Source: Parafrankia irregularis | GTDB lineage: Bacteria > Actinomycetota > Actinomycetes > Frankiales > Frankiaceae | DNA length: 64,000 nt | Direction: 5' to 3' | Assembly (NCBI RefSeq): GCF_001536285.1 | Contig: NZ_FAOZ01000042.1 | Coordinates: 1-64,000 of the forward strand | In this document: one piece after another, positions 8,011 through 63,230 of the stretch | How positions within the stretch are numbered: position 1 is the stretch's first letter | Layout of the letters: each line of letters opens with the position of its first letter | Notes under the pieces: generated by a model | What the model was told of the DNA's origin: nothing | The model's input: the letters and a program-made list of their open reading frames with translations, nothing else | Database searches by the model: none | Program-made: the position numbers and the translations under genes

Positions 8011-9345
8011 TCACCGGTCGGCGCCGGGGATCCAGGTGGTCCCGGCGAGCGGCACCCGGGCCATCGCCGCGGCTTCGACCGTCAGCGCGACGAGGTCCTC
8101 GGGCTCCAGATTGCGCAGGTGGGCCTTGCCGCAGGCACGGGCCAGCGTCTGCGCCTCCATGGTCAGCACCCGCAGGTAGTTCGCGAGTCGCCGGCCGCCC
8201 TCGACCGGATCGAGCCGGGCCGCGAGCTCCGGATCCTGGGTGGTGATGCCGGCCGGGTCACGGCCGTCCTGGAAGTCGTCGTAGTAGCCGGCCGCCGAGC
8301 CGAGCCGCTCGTACTCGGCCGCGTACCGTGGATGGTTGTCACCGAGCGCGATCAGCGCCGCCGTGCCGATGGCGACGGCGTCGGCGCCGAGCGCCATCGC
8401 CTTCGCGACGTCCGCCCCGGTACGGATGCCACCGGAGACGATCAGCTGGACCCTGCGGTGCAGGCCGAGCTCGTCCAGCGCCTGCACCGCCTGCGGCAGC
8501 GCGGCCAGCGTCGGGATGCCGACGTGCTCGATGAAGACGTCCTGGGTGGCGGCGGTGCCGCCCTGCATGCCGTCGAGGACGACGACGTCCGCGCCGGCGG
8601 CGACCGCGAGCTTCACGTCGTAGTAGGTGCGGCTCGCGCCGATCTTGACGTAGATCGGCTTCTCCCAGTCGGTGATCTCACGCAGTTCGAGGATCTTGAT
8701 GGCGAGGTCGTCGGGGCCGGTCCAGTCCGGGTGCCGGCAGGCGGAGCGCTGGTCGATACCGGGCGGCAGGGTACGCATGGCGGCGACCCGATCGGAGATC
8801 TTCTGGCCGAGCAGCATGCCGCCGCCGCCGGGCTTCGCGCCCTGCCCGAGCACCACCTCGATGGCGTCGGCCTTGCGCAGGTCGGTCGGGTTCATTCCGT
8901 AGCGCGACGGCAGGTACTGGTAGACGAGGTGCTTCGACTGGTCTCGCTCCTCGGGGGTCATCCCGCCGTCGCCGGTGGTGGTGGACGTCCCGACCTCGCT
9001 CGCGCCGCGGCCGAGCGCCTCCTTCGCCTGCGCGGAGAGAGCCCCGAAGCTCATCCCGGCGATCGTCACCGGAATGTCGAGGTGCAGCGGGTACTTCGCG
9101 TTGCGGTCCCCGAGGATCACATCGGTGCCGCACCGCTCGCGGTAGCCCTCCAGCGGGTAGCGGGACATCGACGCGCCCAGGAACAGCAGGTCGTCGAAAT
9201 GCGGCAGGGCCCGCTTCGCCCCCCAGCCGCGAATGTCGTAGACGCCGCTGCCCGCGGCCCGCTGAATGCCGGCGATGGTGGCGCGGTCGAAGGTCGCCGA
9301 CTCGCGCAGGCCATAGGTGGCGGGCGACGAAGGATAGCCGGACAT
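8011..9345 (-). CDS. glxD: FMN-binding glutamate-synthase-like subunit (GlxD/MgsC)
   Basis: A 444-residue protein corresponding to the FMN/synthase domain of glutamate synthase, the third subunit of the GlxBCD or N-methylglutamate synthase (MgsABC) type. Visible blocks are GMSFGALSAQAKEALGRGA, GDGGMTPEERDQS, QGAKPGGGGMLLGQK, KIGASRTYYDV, VLDGMQGGTAAT and VSGGIRTGADVAKAMALGAD, which together form the flavin-binding barrel. In MgsC this subunit transfers ammonia or an amine onto the acceptor amino acid. The ATG has an AGGAG ribosome site. It follows glxC with a 64-bp repeat element filling most of the gap. Substrate (2-oxoglutarate/glutamate or an alkylamine derivative) is inferred from the operon. 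Confidence 0.9.
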   Translation of the reverse strand: MSGYPSSPATYGLRESATFDRATIAGIQRAAGSGVYDIRGWGAKRALPHFDDLLFLGASMSRYPLEGYRERCGTDVILGDRNAKYPLHLDIPVTIAGMSFGALSAQAKEALGRGASEVGTSTTTGDGGMTPEERDQSKHLVYQYLPSRYGMNPTDLRKADAIEVVLGQGAKPGGGGMLLGQKISDRVAAMRTLPPGIDQRSACRHPDWTGPDDLAIKILELREITDWEKPIYVKIGASRTYYDVKLAVAAGADVVVLDGMQGGTAATQDVFIEHVGIPTLAALPQAVQALDELGLHRRVQLIVSGGIRTGADVAKAMALGADAVAIGTAALIALGDNHPRYAAEYERLGSAAGYYDDFQDGRDPAGITTQDPELAARLDPVEGGRRLANYLRVLTMEAQTLARACGKAHLRNLEPEDLVALTVEAAAMARVPLAGTTWIPGADR

Positions 9346-9384
9346 GAATCTCCTCAGGCTACGGACGATGTCCGCGGTCAGTGC

Positions 9385-9448
9385 GCCTTTTCCATCTCAC
9401 GTTTGTCGAGCGCTGTAGCCACAGGCCGGAGTCGACGGTGGAAAAGGC
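9385..9448. repeat. 64-bp element with 10-bp inverted ends, copy 1
   Basis: The ends GCCTTTTCCA (9385-9394) and TGGAAAAGGC (9439-9448) are perfect inverted repeats. The element abuts the stop codon of glxC at 9449. A second copy of identical length (44 of 64 positions matching by eye) lies at 49241-49304, also directly after a stop codon. The interior contains CACAGGCCGGAGTCGACG, close to CACAGGTCCGGATCGACG in copy 2. Confidence 0.7.
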
Positions 9449-10312
9449 TCAGTACGCGTCCGAGTTGTGGGCGGCGAAGTGGTAGAGCGTGCGGGCCGAG
9501 CCGTAGCGGCGGAACTCGGCCGGGTCGTACCCCTGTTCCCCCGGCTCCCCTGGTTTCCCGGGCTCCCCGAGGCCGGCGGCGGTGAGCAGCTCGGCCAGCT
9601 CCGCCCGGTGCTCGTCCCGCATCGGCTTCTCCACACAGTCCGCGCCGAGGGAACCGACCTTGCCGCGGACGTAGATCCGGGCCTCGTAGATCGAGTCACC
9701 GAGCCCGTCCCCGGCGTCGCCGCAGACCACCAGCCGCCCCGCCTGCGCCATGAAGGCGCTCATCGGACCGATGTCACCACCGACGACGATGTCGACGCCC
9801 TTCATCGAGATCCCGCAGCGCATCGACGCGGACCCCTCGATCACCAGCAGCCCGCCGTGCGCGGTCGCCCCCGCCGACTGCGACGCGTCCCCGCGGACCC
9901 GCACCAGCCCCGACATCATGTTCTCGGCGACCCCGGTGCCCGCGTTGCCGTGCACGACCACGGTCGCACCGTCGTTCATCCCGGCGCAGTAGTAGCCCAC
10001 ATGACCGCGGATGTCGATCGTGACCGGCGCGTTCACCCCGGCCGCGATCGCGTGCGCCCCCTGCGGCCGCAGCACCTCGAACGCTGCCGGAACGACATCC
10101 GCGACGCCGCCCGCAACGCGGTCCGACGGCCGCGCCAGGCCGGACGGCTGCCCGCTCGCGCCGCCCACGCCGCCCACGCCGCTCGCGCCAAGCGCGTGCA
10201 GCGCGGCGTTGAGCTCGCGGACCTTCGACGTCGACAGGTCGAACGTGCGGGTGTCCGTCACGCGGGTGTCCGCCCTGCTGGTAGCGGTGTCCGCCCCCGT
10301 CAGCGCTGCCAT
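9449..10312 (-). CDS. glxC: GltB C-terminal-domain-like subunit (GlxC/MgsB)
   Basis: A protein of about 287 residues corresponding to the GXGXG beta-helix domain of glutamate synthase large subunit, as in GlxC/MgsB. Repeated glycine motifs are visible: GHVGYYCAGMNDG, VVVHGNAGTGVAENMMSG, VRGDASQSAGATAHGG, VVGGDIGPMS and VRGKVGSLGADC. The ATG at 10312 overlaps the end of glxB by 13 nt (ATGGCAGCGCTGA), implying translational coupling. An in-frame extension to 10519 exists but lies wholly inside glxB in an arginine-rich unnatural frame, so it is rejected. A Gly/Val-rich linker after the N-terminus and a GEPGKPGEPGEQG tail segment are loosely conserved additions. Confidence 0.88.
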   Translation of the reverse strand: MAALTGADTATSRADTRVTDTRTFDLSTSKVRELNAALHALGASGVGGVGGASGQPSGLARPSDRVAGGVADVVPAAFEVLRPQGAHAIAAGVNAPVTIDIRGHVGYYCAGMNDGATVVVHGNAGTGVAENMMSGLVRVRGDASQSAGATAHGGLLVIEGSASMRCGISMKGVDIVVGGDIGPMSAFMAQAGRLVVCGDAGDGLGDSIYEARIYVRGKVGSLGADCVEKPMRDEHRAELAELLTAAGLGEPGKPGEPGEQGYDPAEFRRYGSARTLYHFAAHNSDAY

Positions 10313-11253
10313 GCGTAGACCCTTTCCGGCTCGGGCTCGTAGATGCGGGCGGTGTCGATGCCCGGCAGGTCCGCCAGGGCGCGGAACTCGGACGCCATCG
10401 CCACCCAGGCGTCGGTCTCGGCGATGATCGCCGGCTTGCAGGCGATCGCGTCCCGGACGACCGCGAACCCGTCGGCGCTGGTCACCAGCAGCGTGTAGAA
10501 CCCGTCGAAGCGCTCGCACAGCCCGCGCAGCGCCTTGTCGAGATCCTCACCGGCGGCCAGGCGGGCGGCGACGAAGCGGGCACCGACCTCCGAGTCGTTG
10601 TCCGAGTCGAACCGCACCCCCTCGGCCTGCAGCTCACGCCGGATCGTCGCGTGGTTCGCGAACGAGCCGTTGTGGACGAGGCACTGGTCCGGCCCGACGG
10701 AGAACGGGTGGCAGCCCTGCGGAGTCACCGCCGACTCGGTCGCCATCCGGGTGTGCGCGAGCCCCTGCCAGCCGGACGCGCCGGCCAGGTCGTAGACGCC
10801 GGCGAGCCGCCGCGGGTCACCGGTGCCCTTGTAGACGGTCAGATCCGTCCCCGACCCGACGATCAGCGCCGCGGGCAGCGCCCGACGCACCGCCGCGACC
10901 AGGTCGTCGAGGGGGACGGAGGCGGCGACCACGGTGGTGTCACCGGCCACGGTGACCAGCGGCGATGTCTGGGCACCTGCCCCTGGACGCGCATCCGCCC
11001 CTGAACCCGCATCTGCGCCGGCCAGCGCCGAGGCGATCAGCGTTCCGACATCCGCGGGTTCGGTGGACGTCCCGCCGAGCAGCAGTGAGACCGCGGCATG
11101 GCCTGGCGGACAGCGGCGGACGTCCCCGTAGACGGCGACGCCGGCCGAGTCGGGGCCGCGTTCGACGACCTGGCCCAGCATGGACTCCAGGAGACGTCCG
11201 AGCCGCGGGTACAGGTCAGGGTCACGCAGGTGGAGTCCGACGATCCCGCACAC
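10300..11253 (-). CDS. glxB: Class II glutamine amidotransferase (GlxB/MgsA)
   Basis: A 317-residue Ntn-type glutaminase domain. The sequence begins MCGIVGLHL, so removal of Met exposes Cys2 as the nucleophile. Other family marks are RGPDSAGVAVYG, GLAHTRMATES (substrate-binding Arg), HPFSVGPDQCLVHNGSFANH and DNDSEVGARF. It releases ammonia, or in MgsA handles the gamma-glutamyl amide, for the GlxC/GlxD partners. It lies 46 bp after glnT and overlaps glxC. An Ala/Gly-rich insert at about residues 90-110 (DAGSGADARPGAGAQ) is unusual for the fold but lies between strands. Confidence 0.92.
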   Translation of the reverse strand: MCGIVGLHLRDPDLYPRLGRLLESMLGQVVERGPDSAGVAVYGDVRRCPPGHAAVSLLLGGTSTEPADVGTLIASALAGADAGSGADARPGAGAQTSPLVTVAGDTTVVAASVPLDDLVAAVRRALPAALIVGSGTDLTVYKGTGDPRRLAGVYDLAGASGWQGLAHTRMATESAVTPQGCHPFSVGPDQCLVHNGSFANHATIRRELQAEGVRFDSDNDSEVGARFVAARLAAGEDLDKALRGLCERFDGFYTLLVTSADGFAVVRDAIACKPAIIAETDAWVAMASEFRALADLPGIDTARIYEPEPERVYAWQR

Positions 11254-11299
11254 GGGCCGTCTCCTCTCTGTGTTCTCTTCGGTTCTGTGTTCGCTTCGG

Positions 11300-12772
11300 T
11301 CAGAAGGCGGTGAGGTAGCGGTCGTGCTCCCAGGAGCTCACCGTGCCGTGCCAGGCGAAGAACTCGTCCCGCTTCAGCTCGGCGAAGTAGGAGCTGACGC
11401 CGGCGCCGGCCGCGTCGAGCGCGCCCCGCACCACCGGGTCCGCGTCGAGCGCCTCGACCGCGTGCAGCAACGTCGGTGGCAGGGCGGGCCGGGCCGACAG
11501 CGTCGACGGCGCGGACGGCGTCGACGGCTCCCCCGCCTGGGCCAGGCCGGGCGCGCCCGGGTCGAGATCGAGCTCGATGCCGTCGAGACCGGCGGCCAGA
11601 ACGACGGCGAGGGCCAGGTACGGGTTCGCCGAGCCGTCGGTGCCGCGCAGCTCGATGCGGTGCGGGTCGGGAACGCGCACGAAATGGGTGCGGTCGTTCC
11701 CGCCGTAGCTGGCCTGGCGCGGTGACCACGTCGCCCCCGAACGGGTCGACGTCGCACCGGTGCGCTTGTAGGAGTTCACCGTCGGGCCGAGTACGGCCTG
11801 CATGCCCGGCGCGTGCGCGAGAACGCCGGCCAGGAAGCGGCCCGCGAGGACCGACAGCCCGAACGGACCGCTCCGGGCCCTGTCCCCGCCGCCGCCGACG
11901 GCGCCTCCACCCCCGTCGCCGCCGCCGTCGCCGTTGCCGTTGCCGTTGCCGGGGAACAGTGCCTGGCCGGCGCGCCACAGCGACAGGTGCAGGTGCATGC
12001 CGGAACCGGTCTGGTCCGCGAACGGCTTCGGCATGAACGTCGCCGTCATCCCGCGCTGCTCCGCCAGCATCGAGATCAGGTAGCGGGCGGTGATGACCCG
12101 GTCGGCGGTGGTCAGCGCGTCGGCGTAGGCGAAGTTCTGCTCGAACTGGCCGTTGGCGTCCTCGTGGTCGTTGGCGTAGTTGCCCCAGCCGAGCGCGTTC
12201 ATCGCCGTCGAGACGCCGGTGAGATGGTCGTACATCCGGGTCAGGCCACGGGCGTCGTAGCAGGGCCGGGCCGCGCCGTCGCGGGCGTCGGCGGGGGTCA
12301 GACGTCCGTCGGCGTCCCGGTTGACCAGGAAGTACTCGACCTCGGCGCCGGCGAACAGCTCCAGCTCACGCTCACGCGCCCGGGCCAGCATCGTCTTGAG
12401 GATGACCCTGGGCGCGAACGGCCACGGCTGCCCGTCGACATGCGGGTCACAGTGGACGAGCGCGAGCCCGTCCCGCACCTGCGGCAGCAGCGTGTAGCTG
12501 GCCAGGTCGGGCAGCGCGATCAGGTCGGGGTCGGCCGGCCGCTGCCCGATCGCGCCGACGGCGAACCCGGCGAACCCGACCCCGTCCCGCTCGAACTCGT
12601 CCGCGGCCTCGACGGGCACCAGCTTGGCGCACGGCTTGCCGGTGAGATCGACGAACAGCGCGAGCAGGAACCGGACCCCGTCGGCCCGCGCCCGCGCCGC
12701 CAGCTCACCGCCACCACGGCCGCTGGGCGCGGGCGGGGCATCGACCGGGCCGGGGAACACGTCGAGCGTCAT
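11300..12772 (-). CDS. glnT: Glutamine synthetase family protein, type III GlnT/GmaS-like
   Basis: A 490-residue ATP-dependent ligase of the GlnT subgroup that includes gamma-glutamylmethylamide synthetase. Catalytic features are EVEYFL (144-149), NDHEDANGQFEQNF (201-214), GSGMHLHLSLW (256-266), NSYKR (333-337) and RIELRGTDGSANPYLA (372-387). The start at 12772 is preceded by GGAG at the right distance; a frame extension upstream is not needed. First gene of a glnT-glxB-glxC-glxD operon, an order known from methylamine-using bacteria (gmaS with mgsABC). A glycine/asparagine-rich loop of about 24 residues (275-298) interrupts the beta-grasp/catalytic region after LFPG and looks like repeat slippage. 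The acceptor may be ammonia or a primary amine. Confidence 0.9.
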   Translation of the reverse strand: MTLDVFPGPVDAPPAPSGRGGGELAARARADGVRFLLALFVDLTGKPCAKLVPVEAADEFERDGVGFAGFAVGAIGQRPADPDLIALPDLASYTLLPQVRDGLALVHCDPHVDGQPWPFAPRVILKTMLARARERELELFAGAEVEYFLVNRDADGRLTPADARDGAARPCYDARGLTRMYDHLTGVSTAMNALGWGNYANDHEDANGQFEQNFAYADALTTADRVITARYLISMLAEQRGMTATFMPKPFADQTGSGMHLHLSLWRAGQALFPGNGNGNGDGGGDGGGGAVGGGGDRARSGPFGLSVLAGRFLAGVLAHAPGMQAVLGPTVNSYKRTGATSTRSGATWSPRQASYGGNDRTHFVRVPDPHRIELRGTDGSANPYLALAVVLAAGLDGIELDLDPGAPGLAQAGEPSTPSAPSTLSARPALPPTLLHAVEALDADPVVRGALDAAGAGVSSYFAELKRDEFFAWHGTVSSWEHDRYLTAF

Positions 12773-13083
12773 CGGAACTCCAGATCGGGGACGTGCCGAC
12801 TGCTCAGGCCGGCGGCGAGGCGGGCTCCTGCCCACTGAATCCATGTCTTGAGAGGAGAACTTCTCTCCCCACAGGAGAACAGCGCCGGGTTTCGGCTGGA
12901 TGAACCCGCGTTAAGAACGCGCAGCACGAACCGTTCGCGACGAATCAGTCACGCCAGGCCAGCCCGCGAGCGCTGGGTGTCGCCGCTGAGCAGCACGCCG
13001 ACGCTGACTGGCTGGCTGGCTGGCTCGGATCGGATCGTGGGTGGTGCTGACGCCAGCGGACCGGCCTGTGTGAGACTCCGACG
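12773..13083. other. Intergenic region upstream of glnT
   Basis: This divergent gap should contain the glnT operon promoter. A short tetranucleotide run (GGCT repeated four times near 13010-13025) and AGGAGAAC direct repeats near 12850-12890 are visible. No gene was found. Confidence 0.4.
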
Positions 13084-15904: not shown

Positions 15905-17065
15905 TCAGGGCTGCGGAATCTCCACCCGATCACGCACGTAGAGCGGGTTGTGGGCGATCACGGCCCGCGGGGTCAGACCAGCGCCGGACACCCGGTAGCG
16001 CACCCGCCCGGAGACAGCTTGGGCGATGGAGCCGATGAAGGCCTGGGCCGCGGTACGCAGCGGGCCGAGCCACCGGCCCTCAACGGCCTCATGTACCCAG
16101 ATCTGCTCCAGGTGGATCTTTTCGCGCAGGGTTGCCGCGTCCACGCTGGCCTGCTCCAGGCGGCGGTAGGCGTCGAGGAGCAGATGCGCGGCAGGCATCT
16201 CCCGCACCTCCTGCACCTTCTGCCCGTTCGCTATCTCCTCCAGCCCGATATACCTGCCGAGGCCGTACGCGCCGACCAGGGCGTTGAGGGAACGGACCAG
16301 GTCGGCCGCTGGAAGCGCCCGTCCGTCGAGCGCGACCGGCACGCCGCGCTGAAAGCTCACCTCCACCTCCACCGGCTCGGTGGCCGTGGGCGTGGTCCAC
16401 TCGTAAAGCGCTTCCGGGACGTCGATCCGCTCCGGGTCGTCGAGGCCATCGGCTTCGAACTCACGGCACCACAGGTTCACGTCCGTGCTGTACCGAGCGG
16501 ATTCGGGCCGGGAGCGTTCCACCAGCTCCAGCAGCCCGCTGTCGGCGAGTTTGAGTAGCTTCTTCTCTCGTGATGGCGCGTCGACGACGAACGGGGAACC
16601 GTAACTGCCCGCGAAACGCAGTGCCGCGAAGGTCTGGTTGAAGCGGCGCAGGCTGTTCTGCGTGCCGTCCGCGGTGTGCAGTACCGCGTCGTAGCCCTGT
16701 TCATGGGCCACCGCGGTGGCCACCTGGACCATCAGCGGTCGGGTCAACGACGCCGAGATCGGATGGGTGCCCAGGTAGACGGCCTGGGCAGCGATCGCCG
16801 GGAAGGCATAACCCGTGAGGAACTCGTCCGTCTGGTCCAGCACCAGGTGGTCGAATCCGAGCCGGTCACACACCCGCCCCGCCCGTAGGCCATCACCGCC
16901 GCCAAGCTCGATGGTGAGCGCGAGCACAGACGCCGACGGCAGCACGGACGCTATGTGATGAAGCAGATAGGTACCGTCCAGCCCACCACTGAACAGGCAG
17001 ATCACCCGGTTTTTCCGCAGGAATCTCTCGTCTATGTCCGCCAGGTCCACGACAATCTTGCTCAT
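15905..17065 (-). CDS. Argininosuccinate synthase-like ATP pyrophosphatase
   Basis: A 386-residue protein with the complete ArgG fold order but altered substrate motifs. The PP-loop is SGGLDGT (26-32), which binds ATP for adenylation. The YLGTHPISASLTRPL block (97-111) matches the ArgG YxGxYPLGTALARP region. The aspartate/citrulline loop that reads TGKGNDQVRFE in ArgG is ADGTQNSLRRFNQ here (132-144), losing the key Asp. The C-terminus keeps the GRWLGPLR...GRVRYRV...NPLYV pattern of the tetramerisation tail. It is therefore a probable adenylate-forming ligase with a different acceptor, not housekeeping ArgG. It starts 2 nt after the stop of the DUF4062 gene, so the two are almost certainly co-translated and functionally linked. 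Role unknown. Confidence 0.82.
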   Translation of the reverse strand: MSKIVVDLADIDERFLRKNRVICLFSGGLDGTYLLHHIASVLPSASVLALTIELGGGDGLRAGRVCDRLGFDHLVLDQTDEFLTGYAFPAIAAQAVYLGTHPISASLTRPLMVQVATAVAHEQGYDAVLHTADGTQNSLRRFNQTFAALRFAGSYGSPFVVDAPSREKKLLKLADSGLLELVERSRPESARYSTDVNLWCREFEADGLDDPERIDVPEALYEWTTPTATEPVEVEVSFQRGVPVALDGRALPAADLVRSLNALVGAYGLGRYIGLEEIANGQKVQEVREMPAAHLLLDAYRRLEQASVDAATLREKIHLEQIWVHEAVEGRWLGPLRTAAQAFIGSIAQAVSGRVRYRVSGAGLTPRAVIAHNPLYVRDRVEIPQP

Positions 17066-17067
17066 GG

Positions 17068-19077
17068 CTACTCTTCTCGAATTTGACGTATTTTCTGAAT
17101 GATGAGATTCGCGACGAAGAAGCAGTCGGCGGCCAGATCTCCATCATTCACGGGGGTCACGAAGGTCTCCAGCGCCGCCATCGCGGCAGGGTATCTTTCC
17201 TCAAGCCGTAGTTCGTTGACGACGTCACCAAACTCAACCGGCCCGGCGAGACGGCCGGAGTGAAATGCCTCTCGAGCCCGAGTGACGGCCTCGGAGTACT
17301 CCCGCCGGTCCCGGTGGTAACTGCTCACTATGAGTGCTCGTAGGGCGGTAAAGAAGGAACCCCGATCGAAGGTGACGAAAAAGGAGTCTTCTTCTCCGCT
17401 GACGCCCTCGTGCTCCACCGTGCTCACATGAGCCGATGCCGGCATGGTGAGCTGCGCGGCTCGCTGCTGTTCCGGCAGGTTCATCATGAGCGCCGAGATC
17501 TGTGGCAGGGACTCGTTCAGAAAGCCCTTGATGTAGCCACGCCAGAAAGCGGCGAGCGCCGGTGCTTCGGCCGGGTCGGCGGACCGCAGGAAGCTCCGGC
17601 CCACAGTGATCTTCCAGGCATCGTCCGTGACGCTGTCGAGCGTGTACGTACCCCATCCACCGGTGCGGTCCCAGTAGTTCCACAACGCCACGAAGGCCTT
17701 CGGGCCGATCGGCACGAAACGACCACCACGCAGCACGAACTCGACCAGGTCGCTCGCGGCACCTGCCCCGATCTTCTGCGCCGCGTTCTCCAGCAGGTCC
17801 ACGCGGTCCGGGAGCAGCAGCCGGAGCAGCTGGACAACCGTCTCGGTGCGGAGGATGACGTGCCGGACCCCGGCCCGGCTGATCACACCGTCCTCGGCCG
17901 AGAGACTGAATTCCGGCAGCATGTCACCCAGCCGTTTACCGGCCTCACGCAGCAGGGGATGCGTCCCGTAGGACGACCGGTCGATCGTGAACAGTGGCTG
18001 GAACGACTCCGCGAGAAATCCGAGGAAGCCCTGTACCTGCACCCGGGAGGACGAGTTCCCGGCGTCGATCAGGTCGCGGACACCCTCGAGGTCCGAGTCG
18101 AAGACGGCGTAGGCCTGGGCGGGCGCTGGGGCGTTCATCTCCCCTACTACGCGCGCGAGGTCGACCGTCACCCGGAACGCGAGGTCCGCCGGGCTGGTGA
18201 ACAGCCGTGCCGGGTGCCGACGGCGCAGCTCGTCACGGAAGTCCGCCTGGTGCTCACGCAGTTCGTCGGACGGCACGATGTCATGCGGGACGGGCAGGCT
18301 CTCATCCGCCAGGTAGACGAGAACCCGCTTACCCGTGGCCCGCGCGTAGTCGTACTCGGCCATTGCCACGGACCTGGTCGGATACTGGGAGGGCACACCG
18401 AACGTGTGCCCGAAGATACCGATGAAAACCGCACAGGCGTCCACGGCCTCCGTAGCCGGATGCTCGGGCTCCTCGACCCGGGCGCCGACCGTGGTCACCA
18501 CCACGCCGTGGTCGGTCATGCTCCCGTCGATCGCGTCGGCGACAGCCCGTCGGTGATCCGTGAGGTCGACGTATGTACCCCCGACGAACACTGTGATCCC
18601 GAGCCGCGCGGGCGCCGGCAGCTCGGCCGGGCGGGCATCCGCCGGCCCTTCGAGAATCTTGATGGCCAGTTCCTCGATGGCCTCGTTCTCGTAGTTCTCA
18701 ATCGTGTCCGGATGCAGCTTGAGCGCCTCGGCGAGCTGGCGGCGGCGTGCGGTGAGATAGCCCGGGTCGCGGCCAGGCCACGTCGCCGGCGTGGAGGAGT
18801 CCGCCGCCGGCTCCGGTACCGCGAGCGCGTTGCGCAGCGAATGCGCCTTCGCACCTGTTCCCAGGTCGACCAGCAGCGCACGCAGCAGATCGAGGGCCGC
18901 GGTCACCGATTCGGTGCGGCCAAGAAGCCGGTTCCAGTCCTGGAGCGCGACGAGCAGGGTTCCGCGTTGAGCCAGAGCGGCCAGTGACAACCCCCGACCC
19001 CTGCGTAACTGTGTCAACTCCACGACAAGAGATTTCCGGGTCCCTTCCCCATTGGTTCCCGTTTCGTTCCGGATCAC
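17068..19077 (-). CDS. DUF4062 (TIR-like) multidomain protein
   Basis: A protein of about 669 residues. The N-terminal 20-140 is an actinobacterial helical module (LRRGRGLSLAALAQRG; LLVDLGTGAKAHSLRNAL; LTARRRQLAEALKLHPDTIE). DUF4062 follows at about 160-306 with VFVGGTYVDLTDHRRAV, DACAVFIGIFGHTFG, AMAEYDYARATGKRVLVYL. This is the TIR/STIR-like fold used as an effector or sensor in bacterial conflict and signalling proteins. The C-terminal 350 residues are not recognised; FWRGYIKGFLNESLP around 500 recalls V4R-type ligand domains, but this is weak. The GTG at 19077 lies after AAAAAGGGGG; a GTG at 19104 is the alternative. It is the first gene of a tight pair with the ArgG-like ligase. Confidence 0.8.
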   Translation of the reverse strand: MIRNETGTNGEGTRKSLVVELTQLRRGRGLSLAALAQRGTLLVALQDWNRLLGRTESVTAALDLLRALLVDLGTGAKAHSLRNALAVPEPAADSSTPATWPGRDPGYLTARRRQLAEALKLHPDTIENYENEAIEELAIKILEGPADARPAELPAPARLGITVFVGGTYVDLTDHRRAVADAIDGSMTDHGVVVTTVGARVEEPEHPATEAVDACAVFIGIFGHTFGVPSQYPTRSVAMAEYDYARATGKRVLVYLADESLPVPHDIVPSDELREHQADFRDELRRRHPARLFTSPADLAFRVTVDLARVVGEMNAPAPAQAYAVFDSDLEGVRDLIDAGNSSSRVQVQGFLGFLAESFQPLFTIDRSSYGTHPLLREAGKRLGDMLPEFSLSAEDGVISRAGVRHVILRTETVVQLLRLLLPDRVDLLENAAQKIGAGAASDLVEFVLRGGRFVPIGPKAFVALWNYWDRTGGWGTYTLDSVTDDAWKITVGRSFLRSADPAEAPALAAFWRGYIKGFLNESLPQISALMMNLPEQQRAAQLTMPASAHVSTVEHEGVSGEEDSFFVTFDRGSFFTALRALIVSSYHRDRREYSEAVTRAREAFHSGRLAGPVEFGDVVNELRLEERYPAAMAALETFVTPVNDGDLAADCFFVANLIIQKIRQIREE

Positions 19078-19227
19078 TGGCACCCCCTTTTTCTTCCCGC
19101 TCACATCCGGTCAATCTCCGCTTGCCGATCACGCTGACATCAGCAACTCTAGGGACTGTACGACACGGTGCAGCGCCGGACCACAGCCGGCACCGCCGAG
19201 CAGAAGCAGCCGAAGGGAGTAGTCCAG

Positions 19228-19413
19228 ATGACCCAGCTTCTCGTCGTGCTGCTCGCCGTATCTCTCGTACTGGCGATCGGCAGCGTATTCCTTCTCACTC
19301 TTTCCAGGTTCACCGACGAGCGGCGTGACGTGGCGGATGTGGAACGGCTCCGCGCAGCACAGTACGTCATCGCCCAGGGCGGGCAGCAAGACGGCGACGT
19401 CACCCGGAAATAA
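19228..19413 (+). CDS. Small single-pass membrane protein
   Basis: A 61-residue protein: MTQLLVVLLAVSLVLAIGSV forms one transmembrane helix, followed by a charged tail (FTDERRDVADVERLRAAQYV). The ATG at 19228 has an AAGGGAG ribosome site. An upstream in-frame ATG at 19168 is less likely. It is divergent from the DUF4062 gene with a gap of about 150 bp, so the two could share a regulatory region. I do not recognise a family. Confidence 0.6.
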   Translation: MTQLLVVLLAVSLVLAIGSVFLLTLSRFTDERRDVADVERLRAAQYVIAQGGQQDGDVTRK

Positions 19414-62601: not shown

Positions 62602-62850
62602 GTGGCCGAGATAGGACTTCGTGAGATGCGGCAGAACGCCAGCGAGCTGGTGCGGCGCGCTCAGGCCGGCGAGCAGCTGACCATCACCGTTACCGGCCGA
62701 CCGGCAGCTGTCCTCGGCCCGGTGGCTCCGCACAGATGGCGGCGCTGGGACGACCTCGCCGACATCTTCTCCCTCCCAGCCGACACGGACTGGCCCAGCG
62801 ATCGCGATCTCATCGACGACACCGTTGAAGATCCCTGGGAAGCCCGGTGA
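62602..62850 (+). CDS. Phd/YefM-type antitoxin
   Basis: An 82-residue antitoxin: AEIGLREMRQNASELVRRAQ, GEQLTITVTGRPAAVLGP (Phd-like DNA-binding fold) and an acidic C-terminus (DRDLIDDTVEDPWEAR) that would bind the toxin. The GTG start is the only sensible one. The stop overlaps the toxin start by 4 nt. Confidence 0.88.
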   Translation: MAEIGLREMRQNASELVRRAQAGEQLTITVTGRPAAVLGPVAPHRWRRWDDLADIFSLPADTDWPSDRDLIDDTVEDPWEAR

Positions 62851-63230
62851 GTCGCGGCATCCTCGACACCAGCGTTCTGGTCGCCACCGACATCGCGCCG
62901 ATCCCCGGCGAACTCGCGATCAGCGTCATCAGCATCGCCGAGCTCCACTTCGGCGTCCTGGTCGCCAAGACCTCCGAGGCCCGCGCGAACCGCCTCGCCC
63001 GTCTCAGCGCGCTGCAACGACGATTCGACCCCCTGCCCCTCGACGATGCCGTCGCCGACAGCTACGGGCGGCTCGCCGCCCGCGTCGTCGAGATCGGGCG
63101 CCAGCCACGTGCCCGAACGATGGACCTCCTGATCGCGGCCACCGCGCACGCTCACCAAGCCAGCGTCTACACCCGCAACGCCGCCGACCTCACCGGCCTC
63201 GAAGACCTCATCGAAATCGTGACCATCTAG
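62847..63230 (+). CDS. vapC: VapC-type PIN-domain toxin
   Basis: A 127-residue PIN-domain ribonuclease: LDTSV with D7, AELHFG with E32, MDLLIAATAHAHQ with D93 and TRNAADLTGL with N111/D114, which form the metal-binding active site. It cleaves RNA and is neutralised by the Phd-type antitoxin just upstream. GTG start within the antitoxin stop. Confidence 0.93.
   Translation: MSRGILDTSVLVATDIAPIPGELAISVISIAELHFGVLVAKTSEARANRLARLSALQRRFDPLPLDDAVADSYGRLAARVVEIGRQPRARTMDLLIAATAHAHQASVYTRNAADLTGLEDLIEIVTI

Follow-up and report, generated by a model that had tools for sequence, protein, structure and literature searches.

A nitrile synthetase-like, ArgG-related enzyme paired with a TIR-like DUF4062 protein carrying a V4R-like domain in Parafrankia irregularis and other Frankiaceae

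Gene content of the locus

Positions 1 to 64,000 of contig NZ_FAOZ01000042.1 from Parafrankia irregularis (assembly GCF_001536285.1; this whole 64,000 nucleotide stretch is hereafter the window) include two adjacent reverse-strand genes, one coding for an enzyme related to argininosuccinate synthase (ArgG) and the other for a protein with a TIR-like DUF4062 domain (Table 1). Re-reading of the open reading frames and of the junction (GAGTAGCCATGAGC, comprising a stop codon, 2 nt, and ATG) returned both genes where a preliminary description of the sequence had placed them, along with their 2 nt spacing. The DUF4062 protein was counted from the first GTG; a GTG near 19077, with AAGGGGG in front, is the likelier start. 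Purifying selection acts on both genes: dN/dS between the window and Frankia canadensis was 0.13 in the enzyme gene and 0.14 in its partner.

Table 1. Features of the gene pair and of the adjacent divergent gene, in window coordinates.
Feature	Position	Strand	Remarks
ArgG-like enzyme (ArtA-like; predicted relative of ATP-dependent amide-to-nitrile synthetases)	15905..17065	-	386 aa
S193-T194-D195	16481..16489	-	S193 and D195 correspond to ArtA S197 and D199 (amide contacts)
Altered ArgG aspartate loop HTADGTQNSLRR	16643..16678	-	residues 130-141
PP-loop LFSGGLDGTYL, predicted ATP binding	16964..16996	-	residues 24-34, from alignment
DUF4062 protein	17068..19104	-	678 aa from first GTG
V4R-like ligand-binding domain (putative)	17359..17895	-	residues about 404-582; profile part 404-530 at 17515-17895
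TIR-like DUF4062 domain, predicted NADase	18130..18603	-	residues about 168-325
N-terminal helical region, HTH-like	18649..19035	-	residues about 24-152; sub-threshold HTH_31/HTH_3 matches
Divergent one-helix membrane protein (MTQLLVVLLAVSLVLAIGSVFLLTLSRFTDERRDVADVERLRAAQY...)	19228..19413	+	61 aa; ATG at 19228

Conservation and distribution of the gene pair

Each protein was searched against 35 genomes of the order with thresholds of E <= 1e-70 for the enzyme and E <= 1e-100 for the DUF4062 protein. The enzyme had matches in five of these genomes and the DUF4062 protein had strong matches in four, in all of which the DUF4062 gene lay directly upstream of the enzyme gene and the pair was never split. 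The relatives with the pair were Frankia canadensis, Ca. Frankia californiensis, and Protofrankia coriariae, all Frankiaceae, and the fifth enzyme copy (genome G013, also Frankiaceae) was of another type with an adjoining dioxygenase. Identity to the window copy was 85, 58, and 57% for the enzyme in the three relatives and 82 and 46% for the DUF4062 protein in two full-length orthologues. The pairing was thus real, as proposed, and conserved (4/35 genomes, 46-85% identity), and the neighbors of the DUF4062 gene were not random, the downstream gene being identical in kind in 4/4 genomes.

The junctions differed in form, from the 2 nt gap of the window to 4 nt overlaps in F. canadensis (ATGA) and P. 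coriariae (GTGA) and an in-frame fusion in Ca. F. californiensis. The fusion (L009:4083-6425) joined the DUF4062 protein up to approximately residue 440 to the ArgG-like enzyme; 780 codons were open, the V4R domain was deleted, and a TGA lay upstream near the expected start. It supports a functional tie of the two proteins. The surroundings of the pair were dissimilar, as it adjoined a histidine-kinase region in F. canadensis whose window counterpart was about 10 kb off, and the Protofrankia flanks had nothing besides the pair in common with the window. Given the co-occurrence, the junctions, the selection, and these unlike flanks, the pair is a unit with patchy occurrence inside one family. 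No further match was obtained among 397 genomes of the phylum at a threshold of E 1e-60. A plasmid search with the DUF4062 protein gave no match, and the argG_rel genes (NCBIfam NF038212) found on plasmids were of the dioxygenase-linked kind.

Domain architecture of the DUF4062 protein

The TIR-like DUF4062 domain noted in the preliminary description was confirmed by Pfam (E 1.7e-10, residues 172-254; 41.4 bits against a cut-off of 24.7). The family is no longer uncharacterized: a report of May 2026 identified its members as TIR-like NADases, among them Swarozyc, a Klebsiella DUF4062 protein that mediates abortive antiphage defense with the phage portal as trigger and requires its active-site Glu (PMC13174449). 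A candidate catalytic Glu, E250 (SVAMAEYDYA), lies in a motif S-x-x-x-x-E-[YF]-x-x-A present in 4/4 orthologues and in two Frankia DUF4062 proteins (L015 and L018) and was matched to KpSwz E97 by motif position, not by direct alignment. The N-terminal motif LTARRRxLAxxxxLHPDTIENYENE was kept in every orthologue, and a search for the N-terminal domain elsewhere in the same genome gave weak matches only.

The C-terminus, previously described as large and of no recognizable kind, was V4R-like by both fold and profile. Apart from TIR domains, the full-length AlphaFold model (pLDDT 51) had Foldseek matches to H-NOX, BcsD, and subunits of TRAPP. When the C-terminal 350 residues were modeled alone (pLDDT 60, core 70-86), the 50 best PDB matches came almost entirely from one fold group (BcsD/AxCesD, H-NOX, TRAPP Bet3/TPC6, the MopR phenol sensor, and YslB), with high probabilities and E-values of just 0.005-0.2. 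As an independent sequence test, hhalign of the C-terminal profile against collected PF02830 (V4R) members gave a probability of 93, E 2.8e-7, and a score of 53 over residues 404-530, compared with a score of 17.7 when the profile was reversed, at most 18.7 in 60 column shuffles, and less than 19 with unrelated alignments. The segment VSTVEHEGVSGEEDSFFVTF that follows fits, in our reading, the end of a V4R domain without the Cys pair. An hmmscan of the protein gave no V4R match over the Pfam cut-off, a profile search with the C-terminus against PDB sequences returned nothing, and a viral fold library likewise gave no match. A single-sequence search for C-terminal relatives in 395 genomes recovered the same four loci, the remainder being chance matches.

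Domains of the V4R type and their relatives are small-ligand binders, taking phenols in MopR, haem in H-NOX, and fatty acyl groups in Bet3, and V4R ligands are usually aromatic or hydrophobic. From its sequence and models, the DUF4062 protein is therefore predicted to join a TIR-like NADase to a V4R-like ligand sensor, with an HTH-like region at the N-terminus.

Relationship of the ArgG-like enzyme to nitrile synthetases

The ArgG-like protein matched Arginosuc_synth (E 1e-18) and Arginosuc_syn_C (E 9e-32) in Pfam. Alignment with solved ArgG sequences and with the true ArgG of the same genome (9.5 Mb, 82 contigs), coded on contig C53 and carrying the TGKGND loop, verified the PP-loop SGGLDGT as well as the reported replacement of TGKGND by DGTQNS. 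The form SGGLDG in place of SGGLDS/T was typical of the DUF4062-linked clade. In the enzyme HTADGTQNSLRR replaces the TGKGND loop and VREMP replaces the Tyr-bearing (I)YExP motif. The enzyme is thus not an argininosuccinate synthase, as had been suggested, and since the genome has a second, true ArgG besides the altered loop, a role in arginine biosynthesis was excluded. The altered loop is a real change from ArgG, but it is not unique to this enzyme, as it is the signature of the argG_rel/ArtA family, a change to be expected once aspartate has ceased to serve as nucleophile. Descent of the enzyme from phage was also rejected: viral contigs held no relative, and matches among phage records were only 27-30% identical, the level expected of true ArgG.

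Among solved structures, the closest to the enzyme were PDB 9lei and 9leh, both bearing the name "Nitrile synthetase"; the match spanned about 370 residues at E 1e-76, against a best value of E 7.5e-42 for true ArgG structures. The argG_rel model matched over the full length (E 3e-125) at 417.9 bits, below its 425 cut-off; the four DUF4062-linked enzymes scored 415-419 bits, and the classical members recovered from a sample of the class, namely the G013 copy and four other actinobacterial proteins, 550-567. ArtA/NitB carry out only the ATP-dependent amide-to-nitrile step, with Q146, S197, and D199 as amide contacts in ArtA (PMC13060819, whose reference 13 reports the structure of a nitrile synthetase resembling argininosuccinate synthetase). 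These contacts correspond to Q136, S193, and D195 in 4/4 DUF4062-linked enzymes by alignment, and the first is diagnostic as the position is Gly in true ArgG. The equivalent residues of the 9lei chain are Q175, S226, and D228, and because one offset of 29 relative to ArtA numbering fits all three, we infer that 9lei is ArtA. The window enzyme accordingly appears to be of the known ArtA-like nitrile synthetase kind and would catalyze the same type of reaction.

Outside the amide site, R288, E202, and E276 were common to the window enzyme, ArtA, and the dioxygenase-linked argG_rel proteins. By homology to ArgG, these residues presumably hold the substrate at its amino-acid end, and their identity with those of ArtA makes an amide of the amino-acid type the probable substrate. 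This identity also argues against a role in which the enzyme makes no signal but dehydrates the carboxamide group of nicotinamide (or NAD+), a reaction that would remove the salvage precursor and make NAD+ loss irreversible. Such a role would be chemically attractive, with nicotinamide, a primary amide, released by DUF4062 NADases, ArtA-type enzymes turning amides into nitriles with ATP, and the two genes coupled; yet spending ATP after NAD+ loss would be odd, and we consider it very unlikely. Catalysis itself seems to matter, judged by the conserved catalytic residues and low dN/dS of the enzyme, which makes it highly improbable that the two act as a toxin-antitoxin-like pair with the NADase restrained through direct binding by the enzyme protein itself. 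Tight coupling and the natural in-frame fusion do suggest contact between the two proteins, but the V4R domain was lost in that fusion.

In a maximum-likelihood tree of 21 proteins, the four DUF4062-linked enzymes formed one clade (support 100/99) beside the clade of 9lei, which also held Streptomyces, Rhizobium, Agrobacterium, Burkholderia, and Vibrio proteins. Residues specific to the DUF4062-linked clade included G31, D133, and E277, and owing to these the substrate may differ from that of ArtA. The partner genes of the two clades differed. Among 10 sister-clade loci, a 2OG-Fe dioxygenase was near the enzyme in all except L045 and a DMT exporter in most, and none had a homologue of the window DUF4062 protein; conversely, neither a dioxygenase nor an exporter of these types was in the examined flanks of the four DUF4062-linked loci. 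Neighbors in the DUF4062-linked clade were not arginine or antibiotic genes, in line with the pairing first put forward.

This swap of partners bears on the alternative of a small biosynthetic unit, in which the DUF4062 protein would act as a glycosyl- or ADP-ribosyl-transferring enzyme, the ArgG-like enzyme would add a nitrile, and the V4R domain would sense intermediates of a secondary metabolite. Nucleoside deoxyribosyltransferases are among the fold relatives of DUF4062, and the enzyme kin with informative neighbors lie in small metabolic units (2OG-Fe dioxygenase and usually a DMT exporter). The four DUF4062-linked copies lack such partners in their examined flanks and no 2OG-Fe dioxygenase homologue was detectable in the genome of the window, so that a biosynthetic unit is quite unlikely. 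The DUF4062 protein might instead be a stand-alone Swarozyc-like defense NADase whose operon happens to include a metabolic gene, one that, for instance, shares expression only and has no control role. Characterized DUF4062 defense proteins do work as single genes and only four pairs, all from one family, are known; nevertheless, the translational coupling or fusion in 4/4 loci, the dedicated enzyme clade with its own residues, and the restriction of the C-terminal domain to paired DUF4062 proteins among the 395 genomes render it unlikely.

Two further arrangements of ArgG-like genes were observed. A widespread small metabolic unit of argG_rel with a 2OG-Fe dioxygenase and mostly a DMT exporter occurred both on conjugative plasmids of rhizobia and in genomes of the Streptomyces type (L026, L027, L025, L024, L023, L044, L046, L047, and L040). 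A further ArgG-like lineage with an HSAT/HTAE...QN loop was linked to TauD-type dioxygenases (L028:7995-9278, L029:6001-7206, and L048:8362-9354) and took a place in the tree intermediate between argG_rel and true ArgG, on long branches that make this position uncertain.

Neighboring genes

The divergent one-helix membrane protein listed upstream in the preliminary description was a real open reading frame kept in 4/4 loci at the equal divergent position, with the motif VFLLxLxRxxxERRD[VI]xDxxRL (core ERRD[VI]xDxxRL); the copy next to the pair in F. canadensis was 80% identical. It probably belongs to the unit. In both Protofrankia-type genomes, a large protein of about 970-990 aa with no Pfam match was coded directly downstream of the pair (L041:12816-15785 and L042:6542-9442), which was absent from the window locus. 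Within a few kb of its pair, F. canadensis coded for a Ser/Thr kinase and for a Fic protein (SoFic model); such genes are common and are weak evidence of a defense island. By eye, the window also contained near the pair an apparent run of glutamine synthetase-like, amidotransferase, and glutamate-synthase-like genes (8011-12844), not found at the pair loci of the relatives, and a likely antitoxin/PIN-type toxin gene pair (62602-63230).

A possible ligand-gated NADase module

The reading that we tentatively favor is a small-molecule-gated NADase module, the ligand of which would be made or consumed by the nitrile synthetase-like partner. The pair and its conservation, the domains, the catalytic and amide-contact residues, the clade, and purifying selection were computed here; NADase activity and the nitrile activity of ArtA are taken from the literature. 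The domain identities are well supported. Since a sensor-bearing effector is coupled to a dedicated small-molecule enzyme, we infer that the enzyme is functionally coupled to the NADase and sets the level of its ligand. The TIR-like NAD+ hydrolase would be the effector and the V4R domain the sensor, accompanied by the N-terminal helical HTH-like region, while the translationally linked enzyme would dehydrate an amide to a nitrile with ATP in the manner of ArtA, with an amide of the amino-acid type as its probable substrate. The state of the V4R domain, by which the NADase would be held off or switched on, would most likely be set either by the enzyme's product or by exhaustion of that substrate. 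Under stress such as phage infection, an active NADase would deplete NAD+ and lead to abortive infection or dormancy; the ligand might either keep the NADase off, so that its loss during infection is the trigger as in decoy systems, or turn the NADase on. The enzyme's metabolite as V4R ligand, the defense output, and a role of the membrane protein would all follow from this scheme. A precedent for a TIR NADase under a small-molecule-binding domain is the CARF-TIR protein Cat1 (PMC12162218).

Several observations weigh against this reading. The pair was seen only in Frankiaceae, in four genomes in total, and PADLOC on the tested window neighbors gave no recognized defense gene adjoining it. The structure models were of low confidence (pLDDT 51 and 60), and the usual V4R ligands fit a nitrile amino acid only loosely. 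In addition, because the V4R part is lost and a TGA lies near the 5' end, the Ca. F. californiensis fusion copy may be decaying, or else the V4R domain may be dispensable.

A more specific form of the gated module is unlikely; in this form an amino-acid metabolite that bears a nitrile (or is an amide) would serve as the dedicated second messenger or safety signal, being read by V4R and gating the TIR-like NADase. If true, it would represent a non-nucleotide signaling chemistry in bacterial immunity or programmed dormancy. Known switches of TIR-type NADases in bacterial immunity are nucleotides or phage proteins, and a V4R-bearing NADase conserved with a nitrile synthetase-family enzyme would point to a different signal chemistry. 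There is a substantial chance that the chemistry is new. From the pairing, a family of enzymes that is elsewhere part of small metabolic clusters would also gain a biological role, and a V4R sensor would be placed on a TIR-like effector.

Comparison with known systems

The pairing had been put forward as undescribed, and none such was present in the literature searched, which had neither this combination of parts nor a paper naming both V4R and NADase. Every part comes from a known family, and the combination is a variant of TIR-type NADase modules, so far limited to the Frankiaceae. The enzyme resembles ArtA/NitB (PDB 9leh and 9lei) in its full-length similarity, the HTA-x-x-x-QNSLRR loop, and the Q/S/D amide contacts; it differs by forming a separate sister clade with N133 changed to D, S31 to G, and H/P to E at 277, and by a DUF4062 partner instead of the dioxygenase and exporter neighbors of ArtA-family loci. 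Likewise, the full-length match to NF038212 argG_rel is common to both kinds, whereas only the classical members exceed the cut-off.

Compared with the MopR/DmpR/XylR-type V4R sensors and the H-NOX/TRAPP Bet3/BcsD fold group, the likeness in profile and fold spans residues about 404-582, but the window domain is below the Pfam cut-off, is without the C-terminal Cys pair, and is fused to a TIR-like domain that replaces the AAA+ regulator. Swarozyc shares the DUF4062 domain, the conserved candidate catalytic Glu, and a multi-domain sensor-effector layout. Its C-terminus is a portal-binding HTH/winged AUX domain where the window protein appears V4R-like by profile and fold, and the latter adds the N-terminal helical domain and a dedicated metabolic enzyme, with no recognized defense island. 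Finally, Cat1 (CARF-TIR), Thoeris, and Panoptes are similar in that a TIR-type NADase or other effector is ruled by a small molecule that a partner enzyme makes or withdraws; their signals are nucleotides, whereas the window partner is from an ArgG-related amide/nitrile-forming family.

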